A program made the translations under genes and the position numbers. Under the pieces are notes generated by a model. That model was not told the DNA's origin and ran no database searches. It worked only from the letters and a program-made list of their open reading frames with translations. Below are positions 26,260 to 61,190 of a stretch of DNA of 64,000 nt, one piece after another. The DNA is taken from contig JADFMN010000012.1 of NCBI GenBank assembly GCA_022563855.1, positions 1 to 64,000 on the forward strand, written 5' to 3'. The DNA comes from Armatimonadota bacterium (GTDB taxonomy: Bacteria > Armatimonadota > Fimbriimonadia > Fimbriimonadales > Fimbriimonadaceae). Each line of letters begins with the position of its first letter. The first letter of the stretch is position 1.

Positions 26260-26372
26260 GCGGACTCTTAGTCCGCATCCCGGCCCTCGGACTCTTAGTC
26301 CGGGAATGACGATCCCCCTCCCTTCCCTCCCCCTCGGCATAGGGGGAGCGTGGTGCTAGTTTCCATGGTGCG
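26260..26372. repeat. Hairpin 'GGACTcttAGTCC' repeats and C/T-rich repeat
   Basis: Two copies of a short palindrome (ggactcttagtcc, 26261-26274 and 26288-26301) are followed by the C/T-rich element also at 25241. The same palindrome recurs three times in 31044-31192. The rest of 26139-26259 shows no gene. Confidence 0.7.
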
Positions 26373-28032: not shown

Positions 28033-28563
28033 GTGAATCTCTTGTGGCCATTCACTAATACCGTAAAAGTGTCTTGCCCCGACGGCCGAGTCGTCTACGT
28101 GTATAAGAACGTGGAAAGTGCATTCAGATCCTATGTCCGAGAGCCCTCTATCAGGTTCGGCGCGAAACTAGATCTCCTGGGCGAGGTTTCTGGGGCGATT
28201 AGTGGCGAGGTGGCCTCCCGAGTAGACCGGCTGGTAAACCTGCATGACAGCCAAGTGGCCCACATCTTCATCGAGTTCCGCATCGCCTATGAGGTTTTCA
28301 AGTCCGATCCATGCAATCAAAACGAGTTCCTGGGCCGAGAAGTTGAGCGGATTCTCCAAGCGTACCGCCGCTTGAGACATTTTAACGCTGGAATACATGG
28401 TCTTATTGGCTTGGTAAGGGCGAACCCGGAAGACACTGACCGAATCGCTAAAACATTCGAAGAACTTGCCAGACACCATGGGGACATCATGGCGCCGGAG
28501 GCAACACAGGACGAAATCAGACAGACAAGAAAAGAAGCCGAAGAGTGGCGAGGGCCAGACTGA
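28033..28563 (+). CDS. Small helical partner of the ParA-TM ATPase
   Basis: 176 residues from GTG 28033. It begins with a beta-rich stretch (TVKVSCPDGRVVYVYKNVES) and continues as amphipathic helices (LLGEVSGAISGEVASRVDRL, EFLGREVERILQAYRRL). There is no signal or TM segment. The stop TGA shares its last base with the ATG of the next gene (TGATG, 28561-28565), so the pair is translationally coupled. The family is unknown. By position it is a candidate adaptor or activator of the neighbouring ATPase. Confidence 0.65.
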   Translation: MNLLWPFTNTVKVSCPDGRVVYVYKNVESAFRSYVREPSIRFGAKLDLLGEVSGAISGEVASRVDRLVNLHDSQVAHIFIEFRIAYEVFKSDPCNQNEFLGREVERILQAYRRLRHFNAGIHGLIGLVRANPEDTDRIAKTFEELARHHGDIMAPEATQDEIRQTRKEAEEWRGPD

Positions 28564-29777
28564 TGATCTGCAAGACATTGTGTTTCGCGAGCGCTAAGGG
28601 CGGTTCAGGGAAAACCGTGGTGGCAGCGTCCCTTGCAAAGCTCCTCGGGGCCCTCGGAAGGAAGGTAGTACTCATCGACGCCGACGCTGCCACCAACGGT
28701 CTTACGCTCTTCAACCTCCAAGAAGTACGGAAATGGGGCGAGATTAGCATCTCACAAGGAAACGAGCCTCTGGGCATTTTCGAGTGGGATCGAGACGGGC
28801 CTCCTCCAGGAATCATGAGACTTGACTCTAATGTATTCTTCTTGCCGGCGACATTCGCCTTCCAAAATACAGAGAACACCTTACCGGATCGCTTCCGGAT
28901 GTCCTTGACGTCGGCTGTTCAAATAATGAGAGAGGAATATGAATTCATCATAATAGATGCCCAAGCTGGATCGGATGTGTTTGCTTGCGTTGCAATGAGC
29001 CGTGAGGTATCGGACGAAGTCGTGATTGTTGCGGAGTACGATCCGGTCTCTGCGGCGGGTGTTGAGCGCCTAAAGGGCCTGCTGCGAAATGACCTGACCT
29101 ATGATCGCACTTGGGTGTTGTTGAACAAAATGCTTCCGGACTTCGCTAAGTCCTACGGAGATTTTCTGGAAGTAGCCAAGTATCTGCCGCCGCTACCTTG
29201 GGACTCTGATGTAATCATGGCTTATGCTCGGCGCAAGCTGGCAATTAACCTAGAAGAAGTAAACGAGTACACGATCGGCTTTCTTCGAATGGCCGAAACG
29301 CTCTTAGGAGATGAAGTCAAGTCATCGTTTGAGAAATGGAAGACGAAGCTTGAGTCCCAACTAAGGCGTCCCCTTCTCATTCGCCAGCATGAATTGGAAG
29401 CGAAACTGGATGCACTCGTTCACCTGCGGGCCGACCTTGAGAACTCGGGACGCGCAAAGCGCCGCCGTGCAGTATTATCGCTTTACGTGTTTGCGACGGC
29501 CATTATGACCTCCCTGATTTGGGCCGTCACTTTCACTTCCCCCGATTACCGAGCCTGGCCTGCGTGGATTCTCTTCGTCATAGGGATCGTCTCGCTTGTC
29601 TTGTTCAGCGTCGCACATACGATGTGGACTCGGGTAAGCCGAACGGCGGACCTAGAAGTCGAGCGGGCGCGGCTGCGGCGTCAGGAGCGCTACCTTGAAG
29701 ATAAGCTGAAGACGGTCCAGTCATTGGTATCAGCAGACTTCGACGAGATCGTCAAGGGCAGCGGGAGAACGTCGTGA
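28563..29777 (+). CDS. ParA/MinD-like ATPase with C-terminal membrane hairpin
   Basis: 404 residues from ATG 28563; the frame opens at GTG 28545, but the ATG gives a standard ATPase N-terminus. Deviant Walker A SAKGGSGKTVVA (~9-20), A' motif LIDADAATNG, and Walker B IIIDAQAGSDV. After the ATPase (to ~255) comes a charged coiled coil, two close TM segments (~303-325 and ~332-354) and a ~50-residue basic coiled-coil tail (ARLRRQERYLEDKLK). A ParA-class ATPase with an integral C-terminal hairpin is unusual. MinD uses a peripheral helix. Its role is unknown and it pairs with the 28033 gene. Confidence 0.85.
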   Translation: MICKTLCFASAKGGSGKTVVAASLAKLLGALGRKVVLIDADAATNGLTLFNLQEVRKWGEISISQGNEPLGIFEWDRDGPPPGIMRLDSNVFFLPATFAFQNTENTLPDRFRMSLTSAVQIMREEYEFIIIDAQAGSDVFACVAMSREVSDEVVIVAEYDPVSAAGVERLKGLLRNDLTYDRTWVLLNKMLPDFAKSYGDFLEVAKYLPPLPWDSDVIMAYARRKLAINLEEVNEYTIGFLRMAETLLGDEVKSSFEKWKTKLESQLRRPLLIRQHELEAKLDALVHLRADLENSGRAKRRRAVLSLYVFATAIMTSLIWAVTFTSPDYRAWPAWILFVIGIVSLVLFSVAHTMWTRVSRTADLEVERARLRRQERYLEDKLKTVQSLVSADFDEIVKGSGRTS

Positions 29778-29904
29778 GGCACGAAACGGACCGAACGGCA
29801 GACGTGTCACGCCGAAATATTCAATAATAAGCGTGTCCTTTTTGGGACGTGCCCGCGGCGTTGAGACCCGGTTGAGCGTCTATACAGATTGTTAGCTCAC
29901 GGTA

Positions 29905-30846
29905 GTGCGAAGCGCCCCAAATAAACCGGCTGGAAACCGACTGAAATTGAGTACTGAACATCCGCAACAGCTTGCAACGGCCAAGGGCATGCCCTATGGC
30001 CGGTTCACTTTAACGACCAGCTTGCAGCTCGGTGCGGTGCTGTTCGTCTTCTGGCTCATCGCGCCAGCGATGTTCGCACACGAGTTTGCGCAAACTTGGC
30101 GCATCCTGCTCTGGACAGCCGCGATCGGAGTGCCGCTGAGCCTGTTCGAGTACCTCTACCACAGGTACATGCTGCACTCGGCCGTGCTGCCGTTCTTGGG
30201 TTCGATGCACAAGGCGCACACACACCATCACGGCCTGACGAGCGTGAAGGCCCCCGTGACCCCGAAGGAGCCGGAGCGCAAGGTGCCGGTTGAGAACGAG
30301 TACCCGATCTTGCACGAGCATCAGGAGGACGACATGATGTTCCCTGTTTACGCCGTGTCGATCTTCTACGGCGTATTCCTCGCGCTGTTCGCGATTCCGC
30401 TCAAGCTGTTCTTCCCCGCCGCTCCGATAGTCGCCAGCACAATTTTCTGCGTGACGCTCTGCGTGGGCGCGTACGAGGTTTGGCACGCGATCACCCACTT
30501 GCCGTATGAGACGTGGTGGAAACCCAAGATGAACAACCGTGTATTCGGAAAAGTCGTGCGCCGCGCATACGGATTCCATCTGATGCACCATTGGCGGCCG
30601 ACTTGCAACCTCGCGGTCGTCGGCCTCTGGGGCTTCGCCGTGTGGGACCACATGTTCGGCACGCACAGGCGTCCGGAGAACCTCCCGCTCGACGGCACCG
30701 AGGTCCGGTACGTCGACTGCGAGCTCAGGAAACCGAGGTTTCCGATCGGGCTCTTCGACAAGATTGGAAAGAAGAGCCACAAGGCAGCCCGGAACTTTGA
30801 GCGTGTTGTCTTTCGGGTCTTTCGGAAGAGCCGTACTGCGGAGTGA
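29905..30846 (+). CDS. Fatty acid hydroxylase / sterol desaturase family membrane protein
   Basis: 313 residues; GTG 29905 is the first start, and ATG 29989 would give a tighter N-terminus. TM segments near the N-terminus and centre flank the di-iron histidine boxes HRYMLH, HKAHTHHHG and HLMHH, with further His in EVWHAITH and WDHMFG. Members insert oxygen or desaturate lipids, sterols or carotenoids. The PF04116-type layout is clear and the substrate is not. The loop between boxes (KAPVTPKEPERKVPVENEY) is longer than usual. Confidence 0.87.
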   Translation: MRSAPNKPAGNRLKLSTEHPQQLATAKGMPYGRFTLTTSLQLGAVLFVFWLIAPAMFAHEFAQTWRILLWTAAIGVPLSLFEYLYHRYMLHSAVLPFLGSMHKAHTHHHGLTSVKAPVTPKEPERKVPVENEYPILHEHQEDDMMFPVYAVSIFYGVFLALFAIPLKLFFPAAPIVASTIFCVTLCVGAYEVWHAITHLPYETWWKPKMNNRVFGKVVRRAYGFHLMHHWRPTCNLAVVGLWGFAVWDHMFGTHRRPENLPLDGTEVRYVDCELRKPRFPIGLFDKIGKKSHKAARNFERVVFRVFRKSRTAE

Positions 30847-30913
30847 CCCATTGTGGTGCAGGTCTCCAGACCTGCCTGCGAAGGACGAAACGGTCTCGCC
30901 GAAGGGTGACACG

Positions 30914-31270
30914 TCATCCTGAGCGGATCGAAAGATCCTGCGACACCGCGCTCTCGACGCGATGACGCTCGGCCCCCTCCTAACCTCCCCCGGCCACGAA
31001 CGACAGCCGCGAATACGAGCCCGCAGGCCTGGGGAGGGATTTGGAGCGCGGACTCTTAGTCCATCGATGTCAAGGCCCCTCCTAACCTCCCCCGGCCACG
31101 AACGTCAGCCACGAACACCAGCTCGCAGGTCTGGGGAGGGATTTGGAGCGCGGACTCTTAGTCCGCATCCCGGCCTGTGGACTCTTAGTCCATCGATGTC
31201 AAGGCCCCTCCTAACCTCCCCCGGCCACGAACGTCAGCCACGAACGTCAGCCAGCAGGCCGGGGTTTGGG
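30914..31270. repeat. Tandem intergenic repeat cluster
   Basis: Three imperfect copies (about 30968-31075, 31076-31197, 31198-31270) of a ~110-120 bp unit. Each holds cccctcctaacctcccccgg, ccacgaac-g(t/a)cagcc repeats, ggggagggatttggagcg and the ggactcttagtcc palindrome. A 'catcctgagcggatcgaaag' element at 30914 belongs to a repeat type also hinted at near 39951 and 60124. No gene lies in 30847-31272. Confidence 0.8.
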
Positions 31271-31272
31271 GC

Positions 31273-31728
31273 TCACTTCTTCGGCCAGTCCCAAAGCCCG
31301 TACAGCAAGATATCCTCGGGCTCGTGGCCGTTAATGCGCAAGGCGATCTCGATTTGCGATCGGTGGTGCGCCTCGTGGGCGATGCAGTACGCAAAGAACT
31401 TCACGGTCGTATCGAACCGGCCCGCGCGATCCGATTCCTCCATCTTCTGAAACAGCTGTTGCATCAGGTCGTTCGTCACGTCGAGAGCCGAGAGGATGTC
31501 CTTGCGCGTCGCGGTCTTCCAATCTAGTTTCTTGAGATGCGCTGATTCCTTTTGCATTCGCTCCTTCAACCAGTGGCCTCGGACTGAGACGATGTGCGTC
31601 CAGTTCGAGCGGATAGTCTTCCCTTTCCCGGGCTTAAACTCGAAGTGCTCGTCCTCGCACATCTCCAGCAGCTCGAGGTTGACGGCGTTGTTCACGCGCC
31701 ACGCGTCGTTCAGTTGTTCGACTGTCAT
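31273..31728 (-). CDS. DinB-fold protein
   Basis: 151 residues. A four-helix DinB bundle is indicated by NDAWRVNNAVNLELLE, a middle His (RGHWLKERM), and the C-terminal AHEAHHRSQIEIAL motif with His spaced for metal binding. It is soluble. The end GLWDWPKK is typical of this subgroup. It is related in fold but not closely in sequence to the protein at 3631-4098. Confidence 0.85.
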   Translation of the reverse strand: MTVEQLNDAWRVNNAVNLELLEMCEDEHFEFKPGKGKTIRSNWTHIVSVRGHWLKERMQKESAHLKKLDWKTATRKDILSALDVTNDLMQQLFQKMEESDRAGRFDTTVKFFAYCIAHEAHHRSQIEIALRINGHEPEDILLYGLWDWPKK

Positions 31729-41293: not shown

Positions 41294-42328
41294 ATGGCCA
41301 AGCTCCCTGAGGATCCGTTACGTGTAGTCGATGCGATTGCTGTCTCTATTCGAAGGGATGGCGATGATCGACTCTTGTCCATACTCGATGTTTGCGAGCC
41401 TGAATACGACTATCTCAATGAAGATTGGGGGATTAGTTACTATAACCTCATCTTGAATCTTCCATTTGAGACCTTCGCTACAGTCGAGTCAGACCAAGTA
41501 TCCATCGAAAAGCGCTTCACTGAGTTGGCATCAAGAGCAACTAGCACGTGTACGGACAGCCGTGTTTCCAACGTCATTCTTGGTGCAAACCTAGATGCTC
41601 CATCGGACTGGAGAAGTGGTGCCAAGCCAACACTCGCATCGGTCAGCGATGCAGATCGAATCTGGAAGCCAGGTTGGTTTCGCCTGTTCGTGAGTCATGA
41701 GTCAGGAATTAAAGCACAGGTCGCCGAATTCAAAACAGTCCTTGCAAAGAGGCACATTGATGCGTTCATAGCGCATGAGGACATCGAACCTACGTTGGAG
41801 TGGCAGGAAGAAATCTCTCTCTCACTCGCAAGCTGCCATGCAGTAGTTGCCGTAATCTCTCCTGCCTTTCACTCGTCGTTTTGGTGTCAGCAAGAAGTTG
41901 GGTGGGGGCTCGGGAGAGGCGTATTAGTCTTACCGATCAAACTTCCAAACGATCCAAAAGGCTTCATCGCATCGGTGCAAGCAATAAACGGGGGGACATC
42001 CGAGCTCTTGGAAACTAGGGAACAATTGGTAGACACGCTCGCGATTAACGAGCGCACTCGTCGGCAAATGCACGAACCTCTAATTCAAACACTTGAAAGA
42101 GCGCAAACTACTCGTGCAGGAAATATCATCGCGGACTCGCTAGAGCGCACACAAAGCTTGTCCGAAGAACACGCAAAGCGCATTGTTGCCGCTTCAAATC
42201 AGAATCGTTTTATCGTCTCAGATTCTGAACTCGTTACTCGCCTTCAGGCCGTTGCGGCACGATACGAAGCCAAAAGCAGCACGCCGACAGTCGAATCTGA
42301 CGAGTACGACCCCTTTGCGGACGACTAG
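41294..42328 (+). CDS. TIR-domain protein, 344 aa
   Basis: Residues ~128-240 form a TIR domain: RLFVSHESG (box 1 type), a central ALAKRHIDAFIAHEDI-like stretch, SCHAVVAVISPAFHSSFW and WCQQEVGWGLGRG, in which E201 is the expected NADase catalytic Glu. The N-terminal ~120 residues are an unrecognised domain. The C-terminal ~100 are helical and charged (NIIADSLERTQSLSEEHAKR). Bacterial TIR proteins often deplete NAD+ in anti-phage defence. The gene is bracketed by the repeat motif at 41213 and 42378 and followed by a PIN gene. Defence is an inference from domain and neighbours. Confidence 0.85.
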   Translation: MAKLPEDPLRVVDAIAVSIRRDGDDRLLSILDVCEPEYDYLNEDWGISYYNLILNLPFETFATVESDQVSIEKRFTELASRATSTCTDSRVSNVILGANLDAPSDWRSGAKPTLASVSDADRIWKPGWFRLFVSHESGIKAQVAEFKTVLAKRHIDAFIAHEDIEPTLEWQEEISLSLASCHAVVAVISPAFHSSFWCQQEVGWGLGRGVLVLPIKLPNDPKGFIASVQAINGGTSELLETREQLVDTLAINERTRRQMHEPLIQTLERAQTTRAGNIIADSLERTQSLSEEHAKRIVAASNQNRFIVSDSELVTRLQAVAARYEAKSSTPTVESDEYDPFADD

Positions 42329-42377
42329 GCGAGTGGCCCATCGTTAGTCAGACCACCCGGCGGCTCGGCGGCACACC

Positions 42378-42397
42378 CATCCAAACAACAGTGCCAC
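42378..42397 (+). repeat. Copy 2 of the CATCC-AACAACA motif
   Basis: catccaaacaacagtgccac, in the same orientation as the copies at 41213-41232 and 44669-44688. The rest of the 150-base gap is G+C-rich and without a gene. Confidence 0.55.
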
Positions 42398-42480
42398 CCG
42401 TTAGCCTGTCCACCCGCCCGGTGCCAGGAATCGTCTGCCCTAGCCAATCCTACTACTCGGGTAACGTCTTGTGCAGACCA

Positions 42481-43692
42481 ATGGCAATGGGTGGGAAAAA
42501 GCGCCGGCAAGCTCCCAGTGGCGCGGTACAGCGTGAGGATCCCGGGACGCACGTGATCGTGCCCGACACGAGCGTGCTATTCGACCATGATAAGAACGTG
42601 CCCGTAGACCAAGTGTTTGACGAGACTTGGGAGGCGTACAAGAGCGACTTTCAACTGGAGCTTGTCGTTCCTAAGACAGTTCGAGGCGAACTTATACACC
42701 AGCACGCGAAAGTCAATTGCGGTCTGCTCATGAAGGCGAACGATAGCTTTGAGAAAATAGAGCGCAACACAGGTAAGAGGTATAGCCATCGCGCGACAGC
42801 GTCGACCCTGGAGACGTTGGCACAGCAGAAGATTGATCGCTGGATAGATCTAAAAGGGGGGCGAATGCAGGAGACGCCGTACGCGAGCATCGACTGGGCG
42901 CACGTGGAACACTCCGCGATTCACCGGATTCCTCCATTTGCTGCAGACGACAAATCTGCCCCAACAGAGAAGGGTTTCCGAGATGCCATGATCCTGGAGA
43001 CTCTACAAGACTACTGCCGCCAAGAAACGCGCGACGTCCAAATCGCTTTCATATGCGCTGACAATTTGCTGCGAACAACGGCAGAGACGCGTCTAAGCGA
43101 CGATCACCGCGTTACGTGCTACGAGTCGGTTGATCAATTCCGCTCCTATTGCGAGCTCAAGAAGCGGGATCTCACCGTCGCGTTTGTGAAGAAGATTGTA
43201 GGGCGGGCATCCAAGAAGTTCTTCTTAAAGAACGATGAGAGCACCCTTTACTACCAAGAACAAGTGCGAGACTTTATTCGTTCGGAGTACAGCGCCCTGT
43301 TAGATTCGCCGAATACGTGGGCCGAGCCGCCGAGCGACCCGGTGACGTCGATAGAAGCAGACACGACCGCGGTTGTCGACGCCGGCCATTTTTACATCGC
43401 GCCTGCACTATTTCAGAGCATCGACGAGGAGGGCTGGTATATCTGGTCCTCACCCGTAGAATTCGTGAAGAAATACAAGAGAAAGCTCAGTCTGCTGTCG
43501 CTTGCGGCGCAGGCCACTCCGTTGATTCATGTCGTCACTTTCGCTGCCGTGTGGCGGTCACGAATCGCAACCAATGGTCGATTTCTAGCGCGTGAAATCC
43601 TAGAGATTCGTCCTCGTAAATCCGACCTACGGACGCCGAGGCCAATTGACCACGACCGGTATCATCGGCACGACCTTACGACCGTGAATTGA
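42481..43692 (+). CDS. PIN-domain (DUF4935-like) putative ribonuclease, 403 aa
   Basis: From ATG 42481 (an earlier frame start at 42391 lies inside the repeat). Residues ~22-215 match a PIN nuclease: VIVPDTSVLFD (first Asp), VPKTVRGEL (Glu), KGFRDAMILETLQ (Asp) and IAFICADNLL (Asp), the order and spacing of a DUF4935-type PIN domain. The C-terminal half has DAGHFYIAPALF and EEGWYIWSSPVEFVKKYKR and is unassigned. It follows the TIR gene on the same strand. A toxin or defence RNase role is inferred. Confidence 0.83.
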   Translation: MAMGGKKRRQAPSGAVQREDPGTHVIVPDTSVLFDHDKNVPVDQVFDETWEAYKSDFQLELVVPKTVRGELIHQHAKVNCGLLMKANDSFEKIERNTGKRYSHRATASTLETLAQQKIDRWIDLKGGRMQETPYASIDWAHVEHSAIHRIPPFAADDKSAPTEKGFRDAMILETLQDYCRQETRDVQIAFICADNLLRTTAETRLSDDHRVTCYESVDQFRSYCELKKRDLTVAFVKKIVGRASKKFFLKNDESTLYYQEQVRDFIRSEYSALLDSPNTWAEPPSDPVTSIEADTTAVVDAGHFYIAPALFQSIDEEGWYIWSSPVEFVKKYKRKLSLLSLAAQATPLIHVVTFAAVWRSRIATNGRFLAREILEIRPRKSDLRTPRPIDHDRYHRHDLTTVN

Positions 43693-43744: not shown

Positions 43745-43965
43745 CTATATCAACCCATATCGAGTGTTCCGTCGACGCGGTTCATAACCAGCATCCGTGA
43801 TCAGCCGATCGAACTCTTCGGCGTTGAGGATGAACTTGTTGCCGGCGGCGGAGACTACGTTCTCCTCGATCATCGTCGAGCCGAAGTCGTCGGCCCAGTA
43901 ACCCAAACCCAACTGCGCGATCTTGGGACCTGGCGTCAGGATCGAGCACTGTAGGTGAGCGACGC
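43745..43965 (-). pseudogene. Duplicate of the 3' end of mqnC
   Basis: About 70 codons nearly identical to the end of mqnC (ILTPGPKIAQLGLGY, DDFGSTMIEENVVSAAGNKF, ITDAGY ... RNTRY-GLI and TAG). The upstream part is missing: the frame becomes unrelated at ~43965, inside the tail of the 43969 gene. It lies in the same orientation as the intact gene 0.8 kb away. It directly follows the PIN gene tail to tail. Confidence 0.92.
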
Positions 43966-43968
43966 CGA

Positions 43969-44520
43969 TCAGCTCTTTGTCGCCACTCCGTCACGACTCA
44001 TTTTCATGCGACGCAGGCCGGGCACCTTGAGGGAATCCGGCCCGAAACCTCCACCTATCGCGATGCCGCCAGGTACCGGCGTGTATATCTCGATCGCGAT
44101 CTGCGAGATGGCGAGGGACGATCCTGCGATCGTCGGTTCCTGGGACGGAGTGATCGTCGCGACGACGAGCAATGGTGACTCTTCGTCCTTGAACGCGGGG
44201 ATCGCTTCGCTCTTGCCGGGCATGTTCGGGAAAAACTTCTTCATCACGCCCTGGTGCATCGGCGACGTGTACCAGGCGTTGACGGCGGCTTTGTTCTCGA
44301 ACCACGCGAACACGGTCATCTTGCCACCGGGGAGTATGGCCTGTGTGACCTCGATGCATCCGGGCGTCGCCTTCAATCCGGCTACCAGGTCAGGAAAGTC
44401 GGCCAAGGTCTGCTTCTGGCCAGCCTTTTGGTCTTGCGCCGAGGCAGGCCGGCTCGAGACTCCGAACCCTATACCGGCGATGAGGGCGACGGTGGCAATT
44501 ACGGCTGTCTTGGCTTGCAT
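43969..44520 (-). CDS. Exported ABM-like (dimeric alpha/beta barrel) protein
   Basis: 183 residues from ATG 44520 (a signal peptide follows: TAVIATVALIAGIGFGVSS). The frame extends upstream to 44583 but with no signal. Residues ~50-120 fit the antibiotic-biosynthesis-monooxygenase fold: DFPDLVAGLKATPGCIEVTQ, MTVFAWFENKAAVNAWYTSPMH and VMKKFFPN. Exported ABM proteins are known but their role is unclear. The gene sits between mqnC and the duplicated mqnC tail, on the same strand. Confidence 0.75.
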   Translation of the reverse strand: MQAKTAVIATVALIAGIGFGVSSRPASAQDQKAGQKQTLADFPDLVAGLKATPGCIEVTQAILPGGKMTVFAWFENKAAVNAWYTSPMHQGVMKKFFPNMPGKSEAIPAFKDEESPLLVVATITPSQEPTIAGSSLAISQIAIEIYTPVPGGIAIGGGFGPDSLKVPGLRRMKMSRDGVATKS

Positions 44521-44668
44521 GGTCGAGGTACGAGAGTGCCGCTTTAGAGGTTTCAGCCTGTGGGTCCGGCGATGTTCATCCAACCGCTATCACTGTGTGG
44601 AGGGTCCAAACTCTTCAAGAGCTTCTTAGCCCCTTGCTGCGCATCTGCTCACTGATGTTCGGCGCGTA

Positions 44669-44688
44669 CATCCGAACAACAGTGCCAC
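44669..44688 (+). repeat. Copy 3 of the CATCC-AACAACA motif
   Basis: catccgaacaacagtgccac, in the gap between the ABM-like gene and mqnC. The three copies bracket the TIR gene and the PIN/mqnC-tail/ABM block. Confidence 0.55.
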
Positions 44689-44742
44689 GCGTCCACACGG
44701 GCAAATCAGAATCCGTCAACCGCAAGCGGCTGAGGGATAGAG

Positions 44743-45828
44743 TCAGATCAGTTCGTACCGCGTGTTGCGCTGTCGTGCTTTGTAGCCAGCATCGGTGATC
44801 AACCGCTCGAACTCTTCGGCGTTGAGGATGAACTTGTTGCCGGCGGCGGACACCACGTTCTCCTCGATCATGGTGGAGCCGAAGTCGTCGGCCCCGTAGC
44901 CCAGCCCGATCTGCGCGATCTTCGGCCCTTGGGTGAGGATCGATAGCTGCAGGTGGTCGAAGTTGTCGAGGAACACGCGCGAGACGGCGATGGTGCGCAA
45001 ATAATCAAACGACGACGCCTTGCGCTCGATCGGGAGGTTCGTCTCTTCTGGCTGAAAGTTCCAGGTGACGAACGCGCGGAACGGCTGGCACTCGTCTTGC
45101 AGGTCGCGGATGCGGCCGAGGTGCTCGACGCGGTCGGCCATCGTTTCGACGTGGCCGAACATCATCGACGCCGAAGACTTCAGTCCCTGAGAAGCGGCCG
45201 CGCGCATGCATTCCAGCCACTCGTCGGTCGTGTCCTTATAAGGAGCGATGATCTTGCGCACGCGATCGACTAAGATCTCACCGCCGGCGCCCGGCACGGA
45301 GTTCTGCCCGACAGCTTTCAATCGCTCCAAAGTTTCTTGCAAAGTCAGCTTCGAGATGTGCGCAATGTAGATCAATTCAGCCGGCGACAGCGCGTGCAGA
45401 TCGACCATTGGAAACTCCTTCTTCACGGTCGAAAAGATGTCCTCGTACCAGTCGATCTTCAGCTTAGGGTTGCAGCCTCCTTGGAACAGGATCTCCGTCC
45501 CGCCCTGCTCGACCGTGTCGCGCACCTTCTCCAAAATCTCATCGGTAGAAAGCGTGTACCCCTCCTCGTGGTTCGGCACGCGGTAGAACGCGCAGAACTT
45601 GCACCGCACCCAGCAGACGTTGGTGTAGTTGAGGATGCGGCCGATGACGTAAGTCACGACTTTAGGGTCGGTCCTTTGACGTCGCCGGTGGTCTGCCAAA
45701 GCCGCGAGGTCGTTCAAGTTCGGGTGATAGAACAAGAACTCGGCGTCTGCAGGGGAGATCCGCTCGTCGGCGAACACCTTGTCGGCGATCGAGTCGATCG
45801 TCAAATCGGGCACGGCTGTCGCTGCCAT
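44743..45828 (-). CDS. mqnC: Cyclic dehypoxanthinyl futalosine synthase (radical SAM)
   Basis: 361 residues. A radical-SAM CX3CX2C cluster motif is present (NVCWVRCKFC, C72, C76, C79), with the TEILFQGGCNPKL segment and the C-terminal DDFGSTMIEENVVSAAG stretch that is characteristic of MqnC rather than MqnE. MqnC closes dehypoxanthinyl futalosine to its cyclic form in the futalosine route to menaquinone. No other mqn gene lies in the window. Partial copies of both its ends flank the gene (43745-43965 and 46521-46572). Confidence 0.92.
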   Translation of the reverse strand: MAATAVPDLTIDSIADKVFADERISPADAEFLFYHPNLNDLAALADHRRRQRTDPKVVTYVIGRILNYTNVCWVRCKFCAFYRVPNHEEGYTLSTDEILEKVRDTVEQGGTEILFQGGCNPKLKIDWYEDIFSTVKKEFPMVDLHALSPAELIYIAHISKLTLQETLERLKAVGQNSVPGAGGEILVDRVRKIIAPYKDTTDEWLECMRAAASQGLKSSASMMFGHVETMADRVEHLGRIRDLQDECQPFRAFVTWNFQPEETNLPIERKASSFDYLRTIAVSRVFLDNFDHLQLSILTQGPKIAQIGLGYGADDFGSTMIEENVVSAAGNKFILNAEEFERLITDAGYKARQRNTRYELI

Positions 45829-45876
45829 CGCCCCTATTCTACGCCCCCCGAGGATTCTATCTAGGCTGAATGCGGC

Positions 45877-46503
45877 TCAGGAAGTCCGAATATAGAACCA
45901 GTGGTCGTCTATGCGCCGGAGATAGATGATTCTAAAGACGTCGCCCTGATGCGGCGGGTCACCAGAGGCCGTGTAGACGAACCCTTCGATGTTGTCGAAT
46001 CCGCGCCAGAGGAGCGGGAAGCAGAAGATGGTGTCTTCGTCGCGCTGTCGGATCAGCACACGCCCGGATTCCGCGAGCCGATCATCTACGGGAATCGGCT
46101 CTGGCCGCTCGCTCTGATCTTCCGGCACCCATTGCCCGATGACCTTCTCACGCTCCGCTCGGTACCGTTCGAAATCCGCTCGGACGGCAAACGCGTAGCC
46201 CGGTTGTGCGAACGCTAAGTACAAGGCCGAAACAACCATAAGTGTGATGACGATCAGTACTTTCCCGTGCCGATGGATGAAAGATGAGACCAGCGCGTAG
46301 CAGGCCGTGCCGATGGTGAACGCCCATATAGGCAAGTAGAGCAATTCTGCGAAGAAAAACGCTCGCATTATCTGCAAGTGAAAAACGTACATAATTGCGT
46401 TCAAGACTAAAGCTGTCGAGACAAGCACCAATAGACGCACAGTCCTCGCGTCTCGCTTGCTGTGCTCGCTCTCCGTGAAGGCGCTGGCGTCAGAGCTGCT
46501 CAT
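45877..46503 (-). CDS. Membrane protein, ~208 aa, inserted upstream of mqnC
   Basis: From ATG 46503. Three TM segments in the first half (LLVLVSTALVLNAIMYVF, FAELLYLPIWAFTIGTACYALV, VLIVITLMVVSALYLAFA), then a soluble exported or cytoplasmic domain with beta strands (SGRVLIRQRDEDTIFCFPLLW, FRIIYLRRIDDHWFYI). It is unrecognised. It lies between the intact mqnC 5' end and a second copy of that 5' end (~52 bp). Confidence 0.7.
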   Translation of the reverse strand: MSSSDASAFTESEHSKRDARTVRLLVLVSTALVLNAIMYVFHLQIMRAFFFAELLYLPIWAFTIGTACYALVSSFIHRHGKVLIVITLMVVSALYLAFAQPGYAFAVRADFERYRAEREKVIGQWVPEDQSERPEPIPVDDRLAESGRVLIRQRDEDTIFCFPLLWRGFDNIEGFVYTASGDPPHQGDVFRIIYLRRIDDHWFYIRTS

Positions 46504-46520
46504 CTGAACCTGCGATCGTA

Positions 46521-46572
46521 TCAATCGTCAAATCGGGCACGGCTGTCGCGGCCATCGCCCCTATTCTACGCC
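46521..46572 (-). pseudogene. Duplicate of the mqnC 5' end
   Basis: tcgtcaaatcgggcacggct... matches 45796-45847 with one or two differences and encodes MAATAVPDLTID on the minus strand together with the leader. The frame ends shortly after. This is a second head of mqnC about 0.7 kb upstream of the real one, in the same orientation. Confidence 0.85.
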
Positions 46573-46683
46573 CTCACGGCTGTGCGTCCTGCCATCCGGG
46601 CGGAAAGGCTGGATGATACGGTCGCACTGCACGGGGCAACGACTTTCCGGGTTGCAGATCCTCCCTAGGAGCCCAGTGAATGT

Positions 46684-46776: not shown

Positions 46777-48591
46777 GTGCGTCATATTTCCAGAATCAAC
46801 ATTCGGCCGTTCTGCATCGCCGCCGTTCTCGGGGTGACCAGCGCGGCCTTCGGCCAAGTGCAGGAGGAGTGGGTCGCGCGCTTCGACGGCGCAGACAACA
46901 GTTTCGATTACGCTGCGGCGATTGCGCTGGACAGCGTGGGCAACGTATATGTTACCGGCGATTCCCGGGGCTCCAGCACAGGTATTGACTACGCAACGAT
47001 CAAGTACGACTCGAATGGAAACCTCCTGTGGGAAAGGCGCTACAACGGCCCAGGGAACGATCGTGATAGAGCAACTGCGCTTGATGTTGACAGCGCGGGC
47101 AACGTATATGTTACCGGCGATTCCTGGGGCACTGACACACAAATTGACTTTGCCACGTTGAAGTACGACACTGATGGCAACTTGCTCTGGGAAAGACGCT
47201 ACAGCGGCCCGGACAACGCCTATGACAGTGCGTCTGCAATTGCAGTAGACGGGACAGGAAACGTGTACGTGACCGGCACGTCGGCCATAGTTTCTGACTT
47301 GGATTACATGACGCTGAAGTACGACACTGACGGCAACCTGCTCTGGGAAAGGCGCTACAGCGGTCCGGGAAACGGCTTTGACGGTGCAGTTGCAGTTGCA
47401 ATTGATGACGCAGGGAACGTGTACGTGACCGGAGAATCGAATGGCTCCGGTTCGAGGGCAGATTATGTGACGATCAAGTACGACACGAACGGAAACATCC
47501 TGTGGGAGAAGCGCTACAACGGCCCGAGCAACAGTTTCGACGAAGCCACGGCACTTGTTGTCGACAGCGCTGGCAACGTCTATGTGACTGGCGACTCGTT
47601 TGGCGGCATCGACACGGGCGAAGACTATGCGACGATCAAGTACGACACGAACGGAAATCTGCTTTGGGAAAGGCGCTACAACGGTCCGGCCAGCGGCTAC
47701 GATTCTGCCGCTGCGCTTGCCGTAGACAGTGGTGGCAACGTGTATATCACCGGCAGCAGCTCGGGCTCCGGCACTGCTAAAGACTACACAACGCTGAAGT
47801 ACGACAGTAACGGAAGCCTACTTTGGGTAAGACGCTACAGCGGGCCCAACAACGGCAACAATGTCGCCACTGCGCTTGCATTGGACACTGCTGGCAACGT
47901 GTACATTACCGGAGGGTCACCAAATCTGGCTGGAGACTACGAGTACGCGACGTTGAAGTACAACCCGAACGGCAACCTGCTTTGGGAAATTCGCTTCCAC
48001 GGCCCGGAAAACATTTCCGATGTAGCCGTTGCGCTTGCTTTGGATAGGGCAGGAAACGTATATGTGACCGGTCATTCGTACAGCTCCGGCACGTTCCAAG
48101 ACTATGCGACAATCAAGTACTCGCAGTCAGTCGAGGTTTTGCCGGACAGCTACGAGCTGTTCCGCGGGTTCCTGACGGGCGGCGGGCTGGCCGAGCTGCT
48201 CGCGAGCGACGACAGCTACTTGACGGTGCAGCCGGGGATCACGCTGAACCAGGCTGAGCGGCAAGTGCAGCTCGTCATCGTCGGCACTTCTCCGACTGAG
48301 ACGCCGACCGAGCTTCAGATCAGAGTGGAGGCGCACGCCGAGATCAACAACATCGGACAGTGGATCGAGCTTTGGAACTACGACACCAGTTCGTGGGAAG
48401 AGGTCGACTTCATGATCGCGACGATGGCGGACTCGATCGTCGAGGTGAGCATCACGACGAATCCGGAGCGCTTCATCGAGGCGGGCACGAAGCAGATGAA
48501 GGCGAAGGTCAGCTACAAAGAAGCTGGCATCGTGCTCTCGTTCCCGTGGCTGATCAGCTTCGATGAGACGGTGTGGGTGATCGTTCCTTGA
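46777..48591 (+). CDS. Exported SBBP-repeat propeller with the shared C-terminal domain (second copy)
   Basis: GTG 46777 is chosen because AGAGG precedes it by six bases and a signal peptide follows (RPFCIAAVLGVTSAAFGQ). ATG/TTG starts at 46735-46738 give a longer, poorer leader. About nine SBBP repeats follow (GNVYVTGDS ... YATIKYDSNGNLLWERRYNGP), then the shared domain from LPDSYELFRG to WVIVP. It is a close paralogue of the 15657 gene. Sequence divergence is mostly in the propeller, and the tail is strongly conserved. Confidence 0.87.
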   Translation: MRHISRINIRPFCIAAVLGVTSAAFGQVQEEWVARFDGADNSFDYAAAIALDSVGNVYVTGDSRGSSTGIDYATIKYDSNGNLLWERRYNGPGNDRDRATALDVDSAGNVYVTGDSWGTDTQIDFATLKYDTDGNLLWERRYSGPDNAYDSASAIAVDGTGNVYVTGTSAIVSDLDYMTLKYDTDGNLLWERRYSGPGNGFDGAVAVAIDDAGNVYVTGESNGSGSRADYVTIKYDTNGNILWEKRYNGPSNSFDEATALVVDSAGNVYVTGDSFGGIDTGEDYATIKYDTNGNLLWERRYNGPASGYDSAAALAVDSGGNVYITGSSSGSGTAKDYTTLKYDSNGSLLWVRRYSGPNNGNNVATALALDTAGNVYITGGSPNLAGDYEYATLKYNPNGNLLWEIRFHGPENISDVAVALALDRAGNVYVTGHSYSSGTFQDYATIKYSQSVEVLPDSYELFRGFLTGGGLAELLASDDSYLTVQPGITLNQAERQVQLVIVGTSPTETPTELQIRVEAHAEINNIGQWIELWNYDTSSWEEVDFMIATMADSIVEVSITTNPERFIEAGTKQMKAKVSYKEAGIVLSFPWLISFDETVWVIVP

Positions 48592-48905
48592 TCGCGATGC
48601 CTTACTCGCAGTAGCCAGCAGCGGTCGAATGGATCGTGACATCGGGTACCGTTGCCGCGCCCTTCTTCGCGTCATTTGTCTGGCGATCGAGCGCGCAAGA
48701 ATCTCCATTTGGGGGGAAAGCAGGGATCGGATGCCACTGTGTTCGCGATGTGCGAATCTGTCCGCAGGCTCAAAAAGGGAGACGCTCTTGGAACGGAACT
48801 ATCGCGGGGCGTGTTACCTACCGTAGACTGGGAAATGGGGTTTGCGTTTCAGCGGCGGTTCTGGCTCGCTCGGTAGCGCTTGGCGATTTCAGTCGGGCGG
48901 ATACT
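48592..48905. other. 314-bp gap, no gene recognised
   Basis: Frames run through but none has a convincing start or homology. The frame of the lipoprotein downstream is open from 48636, which is probably by chance. I see no RNA element that I can name. Confidence 0.4.
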
Positions 48906-49451
48906 ATGCGACGAAACCGATTACTAGCTTTCACAATCGCCCCGCTCCTGCTGCTCGCGGGATGTGGCGGTGGCAGCGGCACTTCAAGTTTCCAATTCGA
49001 CCAATTTACGAGCTTCGAATTCAACGAGTTTCCTCCCTTCTCGACTGACTTCACGCTTGGAACGCCGCCAAAGTCGGTCCGCTTCACCGGTGGAAGGACT
49101 TTAACTGTAGGTGTACCAAATTTATATCGGACTGGAATCGCGGCGTGGGAGATCAGCGGTGTCTCGACCGTGGCGACTGCCGATTTCGACACCCCGGCTA
49201 CCGCGTTTGCGTTGTACGCTGCAAATCAGGGCTCTGGCCAGGGGATCATCAGAGTTTACGACGAATCGGACGTGCTCATAGCGACGATTCCAGTTGTGAC
49301 AGACAACATGATGGATGCTAGCGCACTGATCGTTCGCACGGCGGGAGAGCTTGGCGTGGCTGGTATCGGCAAAGTCACCGTCACGAACACTTCGATCCCC
49401 GGCAACCTCAACAAGACTTGGATCGACGACTTTTCGGCGTCTCAGCCGTAA
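48906..49451 (+). CDS. Lipoprotein paralogous to the head of the 51587 protein
   Basis: 181 residues from ATG 48906. Signal and lipobox (LLAFTIAPLLLLAGC, Cys21) are followed by GGGSGTSS and a beta-sandwich-like domain (STDFTLGTPPKSVRFTGG, TGIAAWEISG, SDVLIATIPVVTDNMM, GIGKVTVTN ... WIDDFSA). The same domain forms the N-terminal half of the 51587 protein, which adds the shared C-terminal domain. This one ends at SASQP without it. It is a likely outer-membrane or surface lipoprotein of unknown function. Confidence 0.75.
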   Translation: MRRNRLLAFTIAPLLLLAGCGGGSGTSSFQFDQFTSFEFNEFPPFSTDFTLGTPPKSVRFTGGRTLTVGVPNLYRTGIAAWEISGVSTVATADFDTPATAFALYAANQGSGQGIIRVYDESDVLIATIPVVTDNMMDASALIVRTAGELGVAGIGKVTVTNTSIPGNLNKTWIDDFSASQP

Positions 49452-49517
49452 CTTTAGCCAGCGGGTGAAGCTGCGAGGGTAAAACAGGATTCTAGTTAGG
49501 AACGATACAGGGAAACA

Positions 49518-51392
49518 ATGAACCGATTACTCAAGACCGCGCTGATTACATCACTCAGCGCCGGCTTGGTCATGCCAGCCGCCGCGCAGAGCAACTTCCC
49601 AGACGTGCCCGACAACCACTGGGCATACGAGGCGCTGGCCAACCTGAAGGGCTCCGTGCTCTTCGGCTACCCCGACGGCCTCTACCGCCCGTCCCGTCCT
49701 ATGAGTCGAGCCGAGTTCGCCGTCGCCATCAACAACCTCTATAGCTTGGCTATGGGCAAGATGGCCGGCCTCAGCGATCAGGTCAACGCTCTGGACGCAT
49801 ATGTGAAGAGTCTGAAGACGGGTGCGACCGAGGAGCAGATGGACGAACTGTTCGGGCAGATCAGGGCAATAAGAAGGATTCCCGATATTAAGAGTTTGCG
49901 GGCCGACACCGCTTCCTTGATGCGACTCGCCAAGGAGTTCGAGAAGGAGATGGCCTCTTTCGGCGTCGACGTGAACGCAATGCAGCAGGAATTGGAAAAC
50001 CTCGCCGGCCGGGTAACGCGTTTGGAAGAGCGAAGCAATTCGGTGAACATCAGCGGAGATCTGATCTTCGTGGGGCTGGCTGGACACTCCACGAACGGAC
50101 TGTGGGGTCTGACCAAAACCGGTCGGATAGCCGGTCGAAAGAACTTCATGTCGGCGGGGATGGATAAGACGTTTCAGATGTACCACAACTTCAATTTCAC
50201 GTTCAGTGGTCAACCGGATGAGACCACATACTGGAAGGCCTCTCTCAACTCGAGCAACGCCTACAGCTATGACACGCTGCTGGACAACTGGAATCGAGCG
50301 ATGTTCGGCATGCCGTACGGCGAACCGGAGATCACGAACTTCTGGTTCGACGAAGCAAACATGGCGTTCGACACGAGCATCGCGAATCAGAACGTTGATG
50401 TCACAGTCGGCAGATTCTATCACTCCAGCGGCGCTTTCTTCTTGGCTCGGCCGCATTACGCAGAGTTTTACGAGAACCCGCGCGTGAACAACGGCCAGCA
50501 CGTGTTCGACGGAGTTCGCACCGAGTTTGCTTTTGGAAACACCGATCTAACGATCTTGCTCGCTCGCGTGGATGACCTGAAGTACACGGACGGCAACGAC
50601 TTCACCAGTCTGACTGGTGAGTCGCTGTTCGGATTAGAACTCGAATTCCAGCTCGGCGCTGACGGTCGGATCAAGGGCGTCCACTACTGGGAGCAGGACA
50701 ACGACACCGACCAATTTGTCGGTGCTGGCGAAGACCGCATGCGGACGTACGGCGCGCAAATAGACTACTTCCTCGACGACTTCAGCGTCGCCGGTTCGTT
50801 TTCGCAAACTGACTATTACTTAGGTGATTCGTCGGTGCTGAGCGACGACAACACCGCTGCCTCTGTCTCTATCAGATACGACGGTGGCGGGACTTGGGGA
50901 GCAACAGGCCTGTACAGCATGGTCGAGGGCAACTTCGGAGCCCAGGGGTCTTGGGGTCGTCTCGGACCTTACTTCAATCCAGCGAATATCGACGTGTACG
51001 GCGCGGAGGTTTGGTTCGACGTCTCGGATAGGGTCGGCCTTCGCGGCAGTTGGAAGAGGTACAGACCGGCCGACGCTGCTAGCATGGGCGCATTTGGAAT
51101 CATGATGGGAGATGACCGAATCACAGCGGTGGACGTTGCACTGGACATCGACCTGAACGACCGGCTGTATATGAGCCTGGGATGGGAGAACGCCGACGGC
51201 TCGCTGCTTGGCGGCGACCCTGTCGGACTCAATTGGTATTCGGTCGACTTCAACTACGCCATCAACGGCAATGCCGAAATCGCGGTTCACTACCTGTTCA
51301 GCGACGGTCGGATGCCGGTTACGTACGGCGGGATCACGAATAAAGAGTGGAGAGGCGGCATTCTAGCGTTTCAAGCGACGCTACGATTCTAG
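49518..51392 (+). CDS. SLH-domain outer-membrane barrel (OmpM-like)
   Basis: 624 residues. A signal peptide (ALITSLSAGLVMPAAAQ) is followed by one SLH domain (~25-75: FPDVPDNHWAYEALANLKGS, GYPDGLYRPSRPMSRAEFAVAI), a coiled-coil segment (~80-175, QEELENLAGRVTRLEER-like) and a long beta-barrel (~180-624) ending LAFQATLRF with the C-terminal Phe expected for outer-membrane insertion. In diderms with SLH-type tethering, such proteins bind peptidoglycan-linked polymers through SLH and attach the outer membrane. This is the best evidence for a diderm host. A porin role is likely. Confidence 0.9.
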   Translation: MNRLLKTALITSLSAGLVMPAAAQSNFPDVPDNHWAYEALANLKGSVLFGYPDGLYRPSRPMSRAEFAVAINNLYSLAMGKMAGLSDQVNALDAYVKSLKTGATEEQMDELFGQIRAIRRIPDIKSLRADTASLMRLAKEFEKEMASFGVDVNAMQQELENLAGRVTRLEERSNSVNISGDLIFVGLAGHSTNGLWGLTKTGRIAGRKNFMSAGMDKTFQMYHNFNFTFSGQPDETTYWKASLNSSNAYSYDTLLDNWNRAMFGMPYGEPEITNFWFDEANMAFDTSIANQNVDVTVGRFYHSSGAFFLARPHYAEFYENPRVNNGQHVFDGVRTEFAFGNTDLTILLARVDDLKYTDGNDFTSLTGESLFGLELEFQLGADGRIKGVHYWEQDNDTDQFVGAGEDRMRTYGAQIDYFLDDFSVAGSFSQTDYYLGDSSVLSDDNTAASVSIRYDGGGTWGATGLYSMVEGNFGAQGSWGRLGPYFNPANIDVYGAEVWFDVSDRVGLRGSWKRYRPADAASMGAFGIMMGDDRITAVDVALDIDLNDRLYMSLGWENADGSLLGGDPVGLNWYSVDFNYAINGNAEIAVHYLFSDGRMPVTYGGITNKEWRGGILAFQATLRF

Positions 51393-51586
51393 GCCGTACC
51401 TGTGTTGAACCCGAAGCGGTGGACGAAGGCTGTTCGCTTGGCCGTGCCCCGCGCCCTGTTACAAATACCGGGTTGGAGCCGATTGGGGCAGCAGTTGGAA
51501 CGTTTACCTTTTCATATGCATTGAACTTGGCGTCGGATTGCGTCCGTCAATTAAACGATCTTTGTTTTGTTTTGGAGAGGATTGAT

Positions 51587-52573
51587 ATGAACCTAAGAAC
51601 CAGAAAAATCGCGTCAATGGTCGGGCTGTTCGTCGCTGCATCGTCTTCCTCGGCTCAGGTGAACCTTTTCACCAGCTTTGAACCGCCTACAATTCCGTTG
51701 GGATCCACGGATTTCACAATAGGCACGCCTCCAGACACGGCGCACTTCACCGGCGGAATTGCCACTTCCATCGGCAACTTTAACGCGTATCGAAGTGGCA
51801 TAGCCGCGTGGGGCGTCACTACGCCGAACCAAGTCGGAACTTGCGATTTCGACAACCCAGCTTCGATCGTTTCGTTCTGGGCAGTCAATCTCGGGGGTAG
51901 CGCGGGCTTCGTGCAGGTGTTCGACAACTCCGACGTACTCATTGCAACCATACCGATCATCGGTACGAACATGATGGTCGACCCGCCGATGACGTTTACG
52001 GCCGCCCAATTCGGTGCGACCGGAATCGGCAAGTTTACCATTACGAACGGTCCCGGTCGATTCGATCAGGTTTGGATTGACAACCTCTCTGCTACCGTAC
52101 AAGCGGAGACGACCTTGGTCTTGCCGGACAGCTTCTCGCTGTTCCGCGGGATTCTGACCGGCGGCGGACTGAGCGATCTGCTTGCCAGCGACGACAGCTG
52201 GATGACGGTTTTGCCGGGGATCACGCTGAACCAAGCTGAGCGCCAGGTGCAGCTCATCGTCGTCGGAACTTCTCCGACTGAGACGCCTTCCGAGCTTCGG
52301 TTCAGAGTGGAGGCCCACGCCGAAATCAACAACATAGGACAGTGGATCGAGCTGTGGAACTACGACAACAACTCGTACGAACAGGTCGACTTCATGATCG
52401 CGACGATGGTGGACTCGATCGTCGAAGTGATCATCACGGTCGATCCAGAGCGGTTCATACAGGCCGGCACGAAGGAGATGAAATCCAAGGTCAGCTACAA
52501 GGAAGCTGGCATAGTGCTCTCGTTCCCGTGGCTGATCAGCTTCGATCAGACTGTGTGGACCATCGTCAATTGA
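51587..52573 (+). CDS. Exported two-domain protein with the shared C-terminal domain
   Basis: 328 residues from ATG 51587, with GGAGAGG six bases upstream. The frame is open from 51347, but that part overlaps the SLH gene's end. A signal (MNLRTRKIASMVGLFVAASS) is followed by a domain paralogous to the 48906 lipoprotein (LGSTDFTIGTPPDTAHFTGG, YRSGIAAWG, DVLIATIPIIGTNMM, GIGKFTITN). Residues ~178-328 are the shared domain (LPDSFSLFRG ... WTIVN). The gene probably arose by fusion of the lipoprotein-type head with the common tail. Confidence 0.85.
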   Translation: MNLRTRKIASMVGLFVAASSSSAQVNLFTSFEPPTIPLGSTDFTIGTPPDTAHFTGGIATSIGNFNAYRSGIAAWGVTTPNQVGTCDFDNPASIVSFWAVNLGGSAGFVQVFDNSDVLIATIPIIGTNMMVDPPMTFTAAQFGATGIGKFTITNGPGRFDQVWIDNLSATVQAETTLVLPDSFSLFRGILTGGGLSDLLASDDSWMTVLPGITLNQAERQVQLIVVGTSPTETPSELRFRVEAHAEINNIGQWIELWNYDNNSYEQVDFMIATMVDSIVEVIITVDPERFIQAGTKEMKSKVSYKEAGIVLSFPWLISFDQTVWTIVN

Positions 52574-52694: not shown

Positions 52695-53396
52695 ATGAAG
52701 ACGTTCGTTCCGAATCGATTGACAATCCTCATCTGGCTGGCCGCGTTTGCGGCGACCCTCGTCGGTTGCTCCCAGGAAAAAGCCGAGGTTCCAGGTGTCG
52801 ACCTCGAGACCGGACGCCGCGACAGCCGACCGTCCATGGCAGGCGCAGGAGCAGGTGGCGGGGGCGGAGGTGGAGGCGGAGGTGGCCGCGCGGCCTTCCG
52901 GGGTGGTCCAGGATTGCTCGTGCGCGACGACGTACAGGTAGAGCTGTCTCTCAGCGAAGAGCAGATCTCTGCGATCGAAGAGGCGATGCCCGAGGGCGGC
53001 GGACAGCAAGACCCCGCAGCAGCCCAGGCGTTGAGAGAAGAAACGGACGCCGATATGCAGGTGATTCTTTCCGCCGGCCAATTCCAGCGTTACCAGGAGA
53101 TCAGCTTGCAGCGAGAGGGCGTGCGCGCACTTGCCCGCCCGTCGATAGCGGAAAAGCTTGGGCTTTCCGACGACCAGATCAAAACGATCGAGGACGCTAT
53201 CGAGGCAGCCCGTCCGACTGGTGGACAGGAAGGGTTTGATCGCGAGGCGTTTCTCGCACTTCTAGAGGAGATGAACGAGACGATTCTCGCCACCCTGACT
53301 GACGCGCAGATAGCCGAGTGGGAAGCGATGTTGGGCGAGGAATTCGAACTCGCCCGTGGTCAGAGGCCGGGCATGGCGGCAGCGACCGAAGATTAA
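52695..53396 (+). CDS. Lipoprotein with poly-glycine linker, 233 aa
   Basis: Signal and lipobox end at LAAFAATLVGC (Cys25). Then comes a low-complexity linker with an 11-residue run of glycine (GGGGGGGGGGG, encoded near 52855-52887), followed by two helical repeats: LSLSEEQISAIEEAMPEGG and KLGLSDDQIKTIEDAIEAAR, each followed by a second Glu/Leu-rich helix. The repeats resemble the LTxEQ motif of Spy/CpxP-like or planctomycete helical proteins. It is the first of two adjacent lipoproteins. Confidence 0.75.
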   Translation: MKTFVPNRLTILIWLAAFAATLVGCSQEKAEVPGVDLETGRRDSRPSMAGAGAGGGGGGGGGGGRAAFRGGPGLLVRDDVQVELSLSEEQISAIEEAMPEGGGQQDPAAAQALREETDADMQVILSAGQFQRYQEISLQREGVRALARPSIAEKLGLSDDQIKTIEDAIEAARPTGGQEGFDREAFLALLEEMNETILATLTDAQIAEWEAMLGEEFELARGQRPGMAAATED

Positions 53397-60237: not shown

Positions 60238-60984
60238 TCAAAGATAGTACTGCGCCCAGGCGGAGAGGACGTGGCCGAGGTAGCGGGCGGTCGGAGCGTC
60301 CGACACGATGTGGTCGGCCCGGTCGAGCGAGACGAACGACTTTGGGTGCCGAGCCGCGCCGAAAATATCCGATGCGTTCTCTATCCCGACAACAGTATCG
60401 GTCGGCGAGTGGAACACGATTAGCGCCCTGTCGAGCGACGCAATCTTCTCGGCCATCTGGTGCTGGTCGAGGTCCTCGTCGAAAGCGCGGTTGATCCGGA
60501 AGCGGCGTCCTGCGACGTCGATCTCTCCGATCCCGGCGTCGTCGAACTCCACGCCGTCGAAGAAGTGCCGCACATGCTTGGAAGAGCACGGCGCAGCAAT
60601 GGTCGCCACAGCGGTCACGCTCGGAATTTCATGCGCAGCCAGAATTGCGGTCGGCCCGCCAAAGCTATGTCCTATGAGCACGCTCGGCAAACCGTAACGA
60701 TCCTCCATCTGCCTGGCGACTGCCACGACGTCGGCGACGTTGCCGCTCAGCGTCGTCTCAGCAAAGTCGCCTTGGCTCTTGCCCAGCCCCGGCAGGTCGA
60801 ACCGAACCAGAGCGATGCCTTCCGCCGCGAGCGCCTTGCCGATGTGAACAGCGATCGGCAGGTCCTTGGTGCAGGTGAAGCAGTGCGAGAAGAGCGCAAA
60901 ACCCTTCGGCTCGCCCTCGGGCAGGTCGATGGCGGCGGCCAATTCTAAGCCCTGATCGCTCTCAAATACGGTTTTTTCCGTCAC
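60238..60984 (-). CDS. Alpha/beta hydrolase family protein
   Basis: 248 residues from GTG 60984, which avoids overlap with the divergent glycosyltransferase region (a longer frame starts at 61047). Catalytic triad: nucleophile S107 in GHSFGGP, Asp in FHSPTDTVVG and His in LDRADHIVSD. The oxyanion region is FSHCFTCTKD. The layout matches the group of serine hydrolases often fused to or next to OsmC. A second copy of its last 13 codons lies at 57680. Confidence 0.9.
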   Translation of the reverse strand: MTEKTVFESDQGLELAAAIDLPEGEPKGFALFSHCFTCTKDLPIAVHIGKALAAEGIALVRFDLPGLGKSQGDFAETTLSGNVADVVAVARQMEDRYGLPSVLIGHSFGGPTAILAAHEIPSVTAVATIAAPCSSKHVRHFFDGVEFDDAGIGEIDVAGRRFRINRAFDEDLDQHQMAEKIASLDRALIVFHSPTDTVVGIENASDIFGAARHPKSFVSLDRADHIVSDAPTARYLGHVLSAWAQYYL

Positions 60985-61190
60985 GTCCGTCCCAATCCAA
61001 TCTGATGCTATCCCGTTCCCGTCTTGACTTGCAACGTTTGTCAGCAAGTTCGATGTACGGTAGACTCGACCGCAATCGGCACGGGCTGCAATGCCAGGGC
61101 ATCAGCTTCAACTGTCCGTTACAGAAGTCTTGCAGCGAGGCATACAGCGATTCCGAGCGCAGCCTAGATCGTTTCCCCATACAAGAACAG

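Follow-up and report, generated by a model that had tools for sequence, protein, structure and literature searches.

In the draft genome of an Armatimonadota bacterium (G000; 3.18 Mb in 22 contigs, estimated contamination 3.3%), the gene mqnC is flanked by partial copies of both of its own ends, and the same kind of scar recurs elsewhere: a locus-specific copy of the gene's own 3′ end was detected downstream of 18 of 910 genes (~2%). We favour, with moderate confidence, the reading that these scars mark the entry of foreign DNA through homologous recombination, with the end of a resident gene as the anchor, a mechanism that we infer from the repeats. The mqnC locus occupies positions 43745–46572 of the window, the 64,000-nt stretch of DNA analysed here, and by mqnC the named relatives of this bacterium are chiefly Fimbriimonadaceae and other Armatimonadota. 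About 1.2 Mb of G000 was covered, with genes called by our own simple hexamer model.

The resident mqnC (44743..45828, minus strand), encoding cyclic dehypoxanthinyl futalosine synthase, is intact: its 361-aa product matches PF19288 (CofH_C) and PF04055 (Radical_SAM), and orthologues with 72–84% identity are present in nearly all genomes of the family. Its 3′ part (44747..44960, minus strand) is repeated in direct orientation at 43749..43962 on the same strand (repeat D3; 82% over 214 nt, BLAST E ~5e-51), where 71 open codons are followed by TAG. The initial annotation had described a near-identical downstream copy of ~70 codons; the position and orientation were borne out, but the near-identity was not, given 82% DNA identity and 10 of 71 residues differing from the mqnC product. 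The 5′ end of mqnC (45785..45846, minus strand), comprising 18 nt of upstream sequence, the start codon and the first 14 codons, likewise recurs upstream in direct orientation at 46512..46573 (minus strand; repeat D4, 94%, E ~9e-16), over 62 nt rather than the ~52 bp first reported. This repeat contains a −10-like box, TAGAAT, ending at 45836 in the mqnC copy.

Each pair encloses a single gene, as the initial annotation had stated. Inside the 3′ pair lies a gene (43969..44520, minus strand) with a marginal match to the ABM domain (PF03992, 24.0 bits, just above the cut-off); its frame extends beyond the residue at which the homologue in the sister species G001 ends, and its stop codon lies 6 nt short of the mqnC tail copy. 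Inside the 5′ pair lies a membrane-protein gene (45877..46503, minus strand) without a Pfam match, credited with three transmembrane segments at first reading (a count not recomputed here), for which no homologue was found among 60 relatives. The upstream 5′ copy forms a 21-codon mini-ORF from 46555, MAATAVPDLTIDTIAGSDEQL*, with its stop codon within the start of the membrane-protein gene, and our guess is that the two overlapping frames might be translationally coupled. Directly past the mqnC tail copy, at 41294–43692, a TIR-domain gene is followed by a PIN_12-domain gene, a possible defence pair.

These copies far exceed chance, because in a control with 764 genes no reverse-complement tail match scored 20 or more (≥20), whereas 28 direct downstream matches did, tandem paralogues included. 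For the tail scan, the terminal 60 nt of every called gene were sought within the next 4 kb, and tandem paralogues and dispersed repeats were left out of the counts. Besides the 18 genes with a 3′ copy, six genes in the same scan of G000 have an upstream copy of their own 5′ end; the locus-specific repeats are direct in 22 cases and inverted in 2, and each mqnC repeat is confined to its own locus within 1.2 Mb. The same scan of two complete relatives, G007 and G010, yielded 0/324 and 0/352 genes (0/676 against 18/910; Fisher test, 5e-5), and the loci of ~22 other genomes gave 1/308, so that ~0.1% of the sampled genes in related genera carry the scar compared with ~2% in G000. In G001 the count was 1/114, with G001 mqnC itself missed by the last-60-nt rule.

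Tail copies were found for a TauE exporter (133 nt; differences of 3/2/16 at codon positions 1/2/3), a CBM9/DUF5916 protein (174 nt; 3/0/8), a ZIP transporter (61 nt), and an HPPD-like dioxygenase (38 nt) and an M55-like peptidase (47 nt; 0/0/3), the last two identities being assigned from sequence rather than by profile search. The TauE pair encloses ~265 nt with no called gene, and the passenger is thus not always one gene. For mqnC, TauE, DUF5916, ZIP, the HPPD-like gene, the M55 peptidase and a few others, the homology starts at variable positions (−38 to −218 nt), whereas its end always falls between −8 and +6 nt relative to the stop codon, which fits diverged coding sequence with intergenic flanks from different species. 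A minority of the 18 copies are short or extend past the stop codon (for example, C9:62214 and C12:26356), and these may have another origin.

Several further repeats were noted. Within the window, the 3′ end of an ankyrin-type gene (19699–22044) is repeated 3.3 kb downstream (21971–22036 and 25308–25373; 66 nt, 86%), with three genes, including a MinD/FlhG-like ATPase gene, intervening before the second copy, and an alpha/beta-hydrolase-like gene (60238–61047, minus strand) has a 35-nt copy (94%) of its 3′ end ~2.5 kb downstream. At least five paralogous beta-propeller-type genes, at 13906–19592 and 46777–52573, share C-terminal stretches of ~450–490 nt (82–89% alike), and here too it is the 3′ ends that are conserved. 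Two unlinked single genes (L136, 5306–6119, and L143, 9772–10893) each lie between direct copies of GAACGGCGCGACAGCCCGTGAGCATCCG, which has opposite orientations at the two loci and is a possible shared insertion signal.

The divergence between the mqnC tails resembles that between species. mqnC and its 3′ copy differ at 8/5/26 sites by codon position (27 at the third when the last codon is counted), so that the third-position share is 0.67, compared with 0.65 when functional mqnC tails are compared across species. Within one genome, the two tails lie at a third-position distance of 0.38 in G000 and 0.37 in G001, against 0.32 between G000 and G001 mqnC; the leftover tail of G000 is 0.35 from G001 mqnC. 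From this ortholog-like codon pattern and these distances, the two mqnC tails look like the sequences of two species brought together. Over the last 24 codons, the four tails (two each from G000 and G001) are all about equally distant with no close pair, so neither tail of a genome stands out as the native one. The G000–G001 distance is uneven along mqnC; codon 337, considered as a recombination breakpoint, was dropped because other windows of the gene are equally uneven, and no single breakpoint is therefore proven.

An old local duplication within one genome, caused by a staggered break, template switching or unequal exchange around an insertion, with the detached copy decaying while mqnC stayed under selection, would make a donor unnecessary and would account for the direct orientation and variable length of the repeats. 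A locus on contig C9 (L139, 3350–3971) resembles a long target duplication of this kind: two convergent genes that apparently once overlapped by ~33 nt are now parted by one ankyrin-repeat gene, the 69-nt overlap region stands on both sides of it, and both convergent genes stay intact. The few copies that continue past the stop codon (C9:62214 and C12:26356) also suit a local origin. Against it, neutral decay of one copy predicts a third-position share of ~0.43–0.48, whereas ten copies pooled differ at 34/13/82 sites, a share of 0.64 (P = 2e-6 for a modelled 0.43 and 3e-4 for 0.48, with sites pooled within events and both null values being our own approximations). Nor does duplication give a reason for homology to end at the stop codon, and 71 codons are still open despite interspecies-level divergence. 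The codon pattern and stop-limited homology thus set back a simple tandem duplication, and we regard local duplication as rather unlikely.

Comparison with the sister species suggests that insertion happened more than once. G001 carries its own mqnC tail copy of 46 codons, ~0.6 kb downstream of mqnC, and the pair encloses a different, unrelated ORF of 200 aa that ends ~9 nt short of the copy; a second mqnC tail occurs in only these 2 of 85 family genomes. Upstream, the G001 homologue of the window gene 52695–53396 sits ~0.7 kb from mqnC, and in G000 the membrane-protein gene and several more genes, including beta-propeller-type ones, separate the two. The initial annotation had read the locus as a repeated target. 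Repeated insertion was supported by the separate G001 copy and by the 5′ insert without a homologue in 60 relatives; mqnC is not a special target, being one case of many. The suggestion that the enclosed genes travel with mqnC ends failed for the ABM-domain gene, homologues of which in G001, G017, G084 and G120 were found next to neither mqnC nor an mqnC tail. Within the genus, this comparison spans two species, G000 and G001, with one genome 68% complete. Outside it, none of the family genomes searched has an mqnC tail copy, but the flanking genes there are not conserved; the comparison with empty sites proposed initially was informative at a different locus.

That locus is the junction at which the DUF5916 gene meets a convergent proteasomal ATPase gene, and it measures only 20–59 bp in three other genera (G010, G064 and G015). 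At this junction, G001 and G074 carry ~0.8–1.2 kb of inserted sequence without a tail copy, and G000 (L146, contig C16, 7380–11600) has a 4.7-kb insert with several small genes and ~5 copies of the DUF5916 3′ end, 21–174 nt long. The comparison indicates that this site has probably changed by gaining DNA, that such gain is repeatable and that some insertions leave no scar. In the L146 array another gene end, ...SETVSATIPG*, is likewise repeated. Between the genes at 26255–31293 of the window, palindromic REP-like units (GGACTCTTAGTCC) flanked by CCTCCC-rich sequence occur repeatedly, and a similar unit occurs among the L146 inserts.

Such insertions could in principle be site-specific integrative elements, small or decayed, whose attachment site carries a form of the 3′ end of the target gene and whose recombinase acts in trans or has been lost. 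The classical picture is that of prophage e14 and phage 21 in icd, where an integrase-made insertion replaces the 3′ end of the gene with a synonymously diverged one terminating at the stop codon, the old end being stranded on the far side. The scars share this picture, in that incoming DNA would swap the 3′ end of the gene and the old end would remain past the insert, and within one array a short core at the stop codon, CTGACGATYGGYGGBTRR, is shared. The e14/icd element, unlike these inserts, has its own integrase and one fixed site. In G000 the target genes are many and unrelated and no common motif was seen among them, tyrosine recombinases are few (five PF00589 matches, on contigs C2, C3 and C5 only, with none on the contig of the window), and the mqnC inserts contain no integrase, the enclosed genes being the ABM-domain and membrane-protein genes. 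The 5′ insertion and a repeat length ranging over 35–214 nt also misfit, and we consider integrative elements quite improbable.

We give still less credence to an ancestral tandem mqnC array, in which a second full-length mqnC diverged under selection and was later reduced to fragments, a history that the initial annotation had named as one that would refute its reading. It would predict coding-type divergence and a downstream tail fragment in both members of the genus, as found. However, no second full-length mqnC occurs in 41 genomes (only ~35% paralogues), a tail search of 85 family genomes found no such array, the two tail fragments are no closer to each other (31/138) than to mqnC (23–29/138), and it would not account for scars of the same kind at numerous unrelated genes. 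An assembly artefact, in which a metagenome bin joins the gene ends of co-occurring strains in one contig, is very improbable: a 22-contig draft with an estimated contamination of 3.3% and the interspecies-level tail difference would suit it, but the scar is present in two separate genomes, repeats are direct in 22 cases against 2 inverted, passenger genes lie between the copies, and such scars are almost absent from relatives whose assemblies come from similar data.

Under the favoured reading, recombination anchored in a resident gene end, incoming DNA would carry the mqnC end of another lineage together with an adjacent gene and would pair with the mqnC already in the chromosome. That gene would take over the donor end and the passenger gene would be added. 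Closure of the other side would come either from an illegitimate join within the end of the resident gene (homology-facilitated illegitimate recombination, HFIR) or from integration of a circle through a single crossover. Either way, the outcome would be one complete mqnC and a leftover second end past the passenger; the observations favour neither route over the other, because the four tails are about equally distant over the last 24 codons and mqnC distances are uneven. One such event would have occurred on the 3′ side, bringing the ABM-domain gene, and one on the 5′ side, bringing the membrane-protein gene, with an apparently independent event in the sister species and similar ones at many other genes of G000. 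The foreign donor, the uptake route and the order of events are inferred; a donor with mqnC followed by the ABM-domain gene was found in none of 61 relatives and none of 251 genomes of the phylum. ComEC and DprA, which are parts of natural DNA uptake, were found in 7/7 genomes checked, and Ku was not found in these 7. DNA uptake by itself does not account for the surplus of scars, because the relatives have the same ComEC/DprA set.

A bolder extension, which we consider a long shot, is that the genus collects single genes without a recombinase, a gene and a borrowed housekeeping-gene end serving as a cassette that, through homology alone, would recombine with the corresponding gene end of another cell, restoring that gene and leaving the process repeatable, with gene ends acting as attachment sites genome-wide. 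Gain of single genes without a mobile element normally leaves no mark and is hence hard to see. Leftover gene ends are marks that can be counted, that bear on the age of the events and that point to the donor lineage; if this lineage truly has ~20x the scars of its relatives, it would hold a countable natural record of homology-anchored gene gain. The signature, a gene end repeated downstream with homology stopping at the stop codon and synonymous differences, lends itself to a simple scan of any genome.

Among known systems, integron cassette arrays also hold single genes between direct repeats, but share attC sites, whereas the repeats here are locus-specific gene ends; an integron was rejected for mqnC since its repeats are not shared between loci in the 1.2 Mb searched, although the five tyrosine recombinase matches noted above might include an intI integrase. 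It was also rejected for an integron-like array on contig C1 (383–392 kb; L169, 383300–392350), where ~10 direct intergenic repeats of ~100 nt (CCCCTTGAGCCGGGAGGGACAGGGGGATCC...AACCGTCAGCCGCG) alternate with single small genes in mixed orientation and look like dispersed intergenic elements. A diversity-generating retroelement was discarded because differences at A account for only 4/39 (copy as template) or 10/39 (mqnC as template) at mqnC, and for 2/13 and 1/13 in the DUF5916 tail pair on C16, where the changes are not adenine-directed. A transposon with target duplication was discarded because the repeat length (35–214 nt) is not fixed and the genes enclosed at mqnC have no transposase match. 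In Streptococcus pneumoniae, uptake of a partly homologous fragment during transformation produces merodiploids with direct duplications (PMC3784515), but those span 100–900 kb and arise through repeats already present. HFIR of transforming DNA has been described in Acinetobacter, Streptococcus and Pseudomonas stutzeri (cited in PMC5361080; also PMC3240628) and resembles the proposed process in its one homologous anchor, one non-homologous join and gain of foreign sequence; those have mostly been examined as rare laboratory events, whereas here the process is deduced from many scars at housekeeping-gene ends in one natural genome. The closest known process is that proposed for the Vibrio cholerae T6SS immunity arrays, where new modules are proposed to enter by HFIR and push the old 3′ end back (PMC5361080). 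There, too, successive insertions displace the resident 3′ end and build arrays of single (orphan immunity) genes, and no integrase is known to be required. The V. cholerae insertions target an effector gene, those described here a menaquinone gene as well as transporter and enzyme genes, and none of the passengers here was recognised as an immunity gene. A literature search combining partial duplication with insertion found no matching paper. In the present case, the targets are everyday housekeeping genes and transporter genes at sites across the genome.
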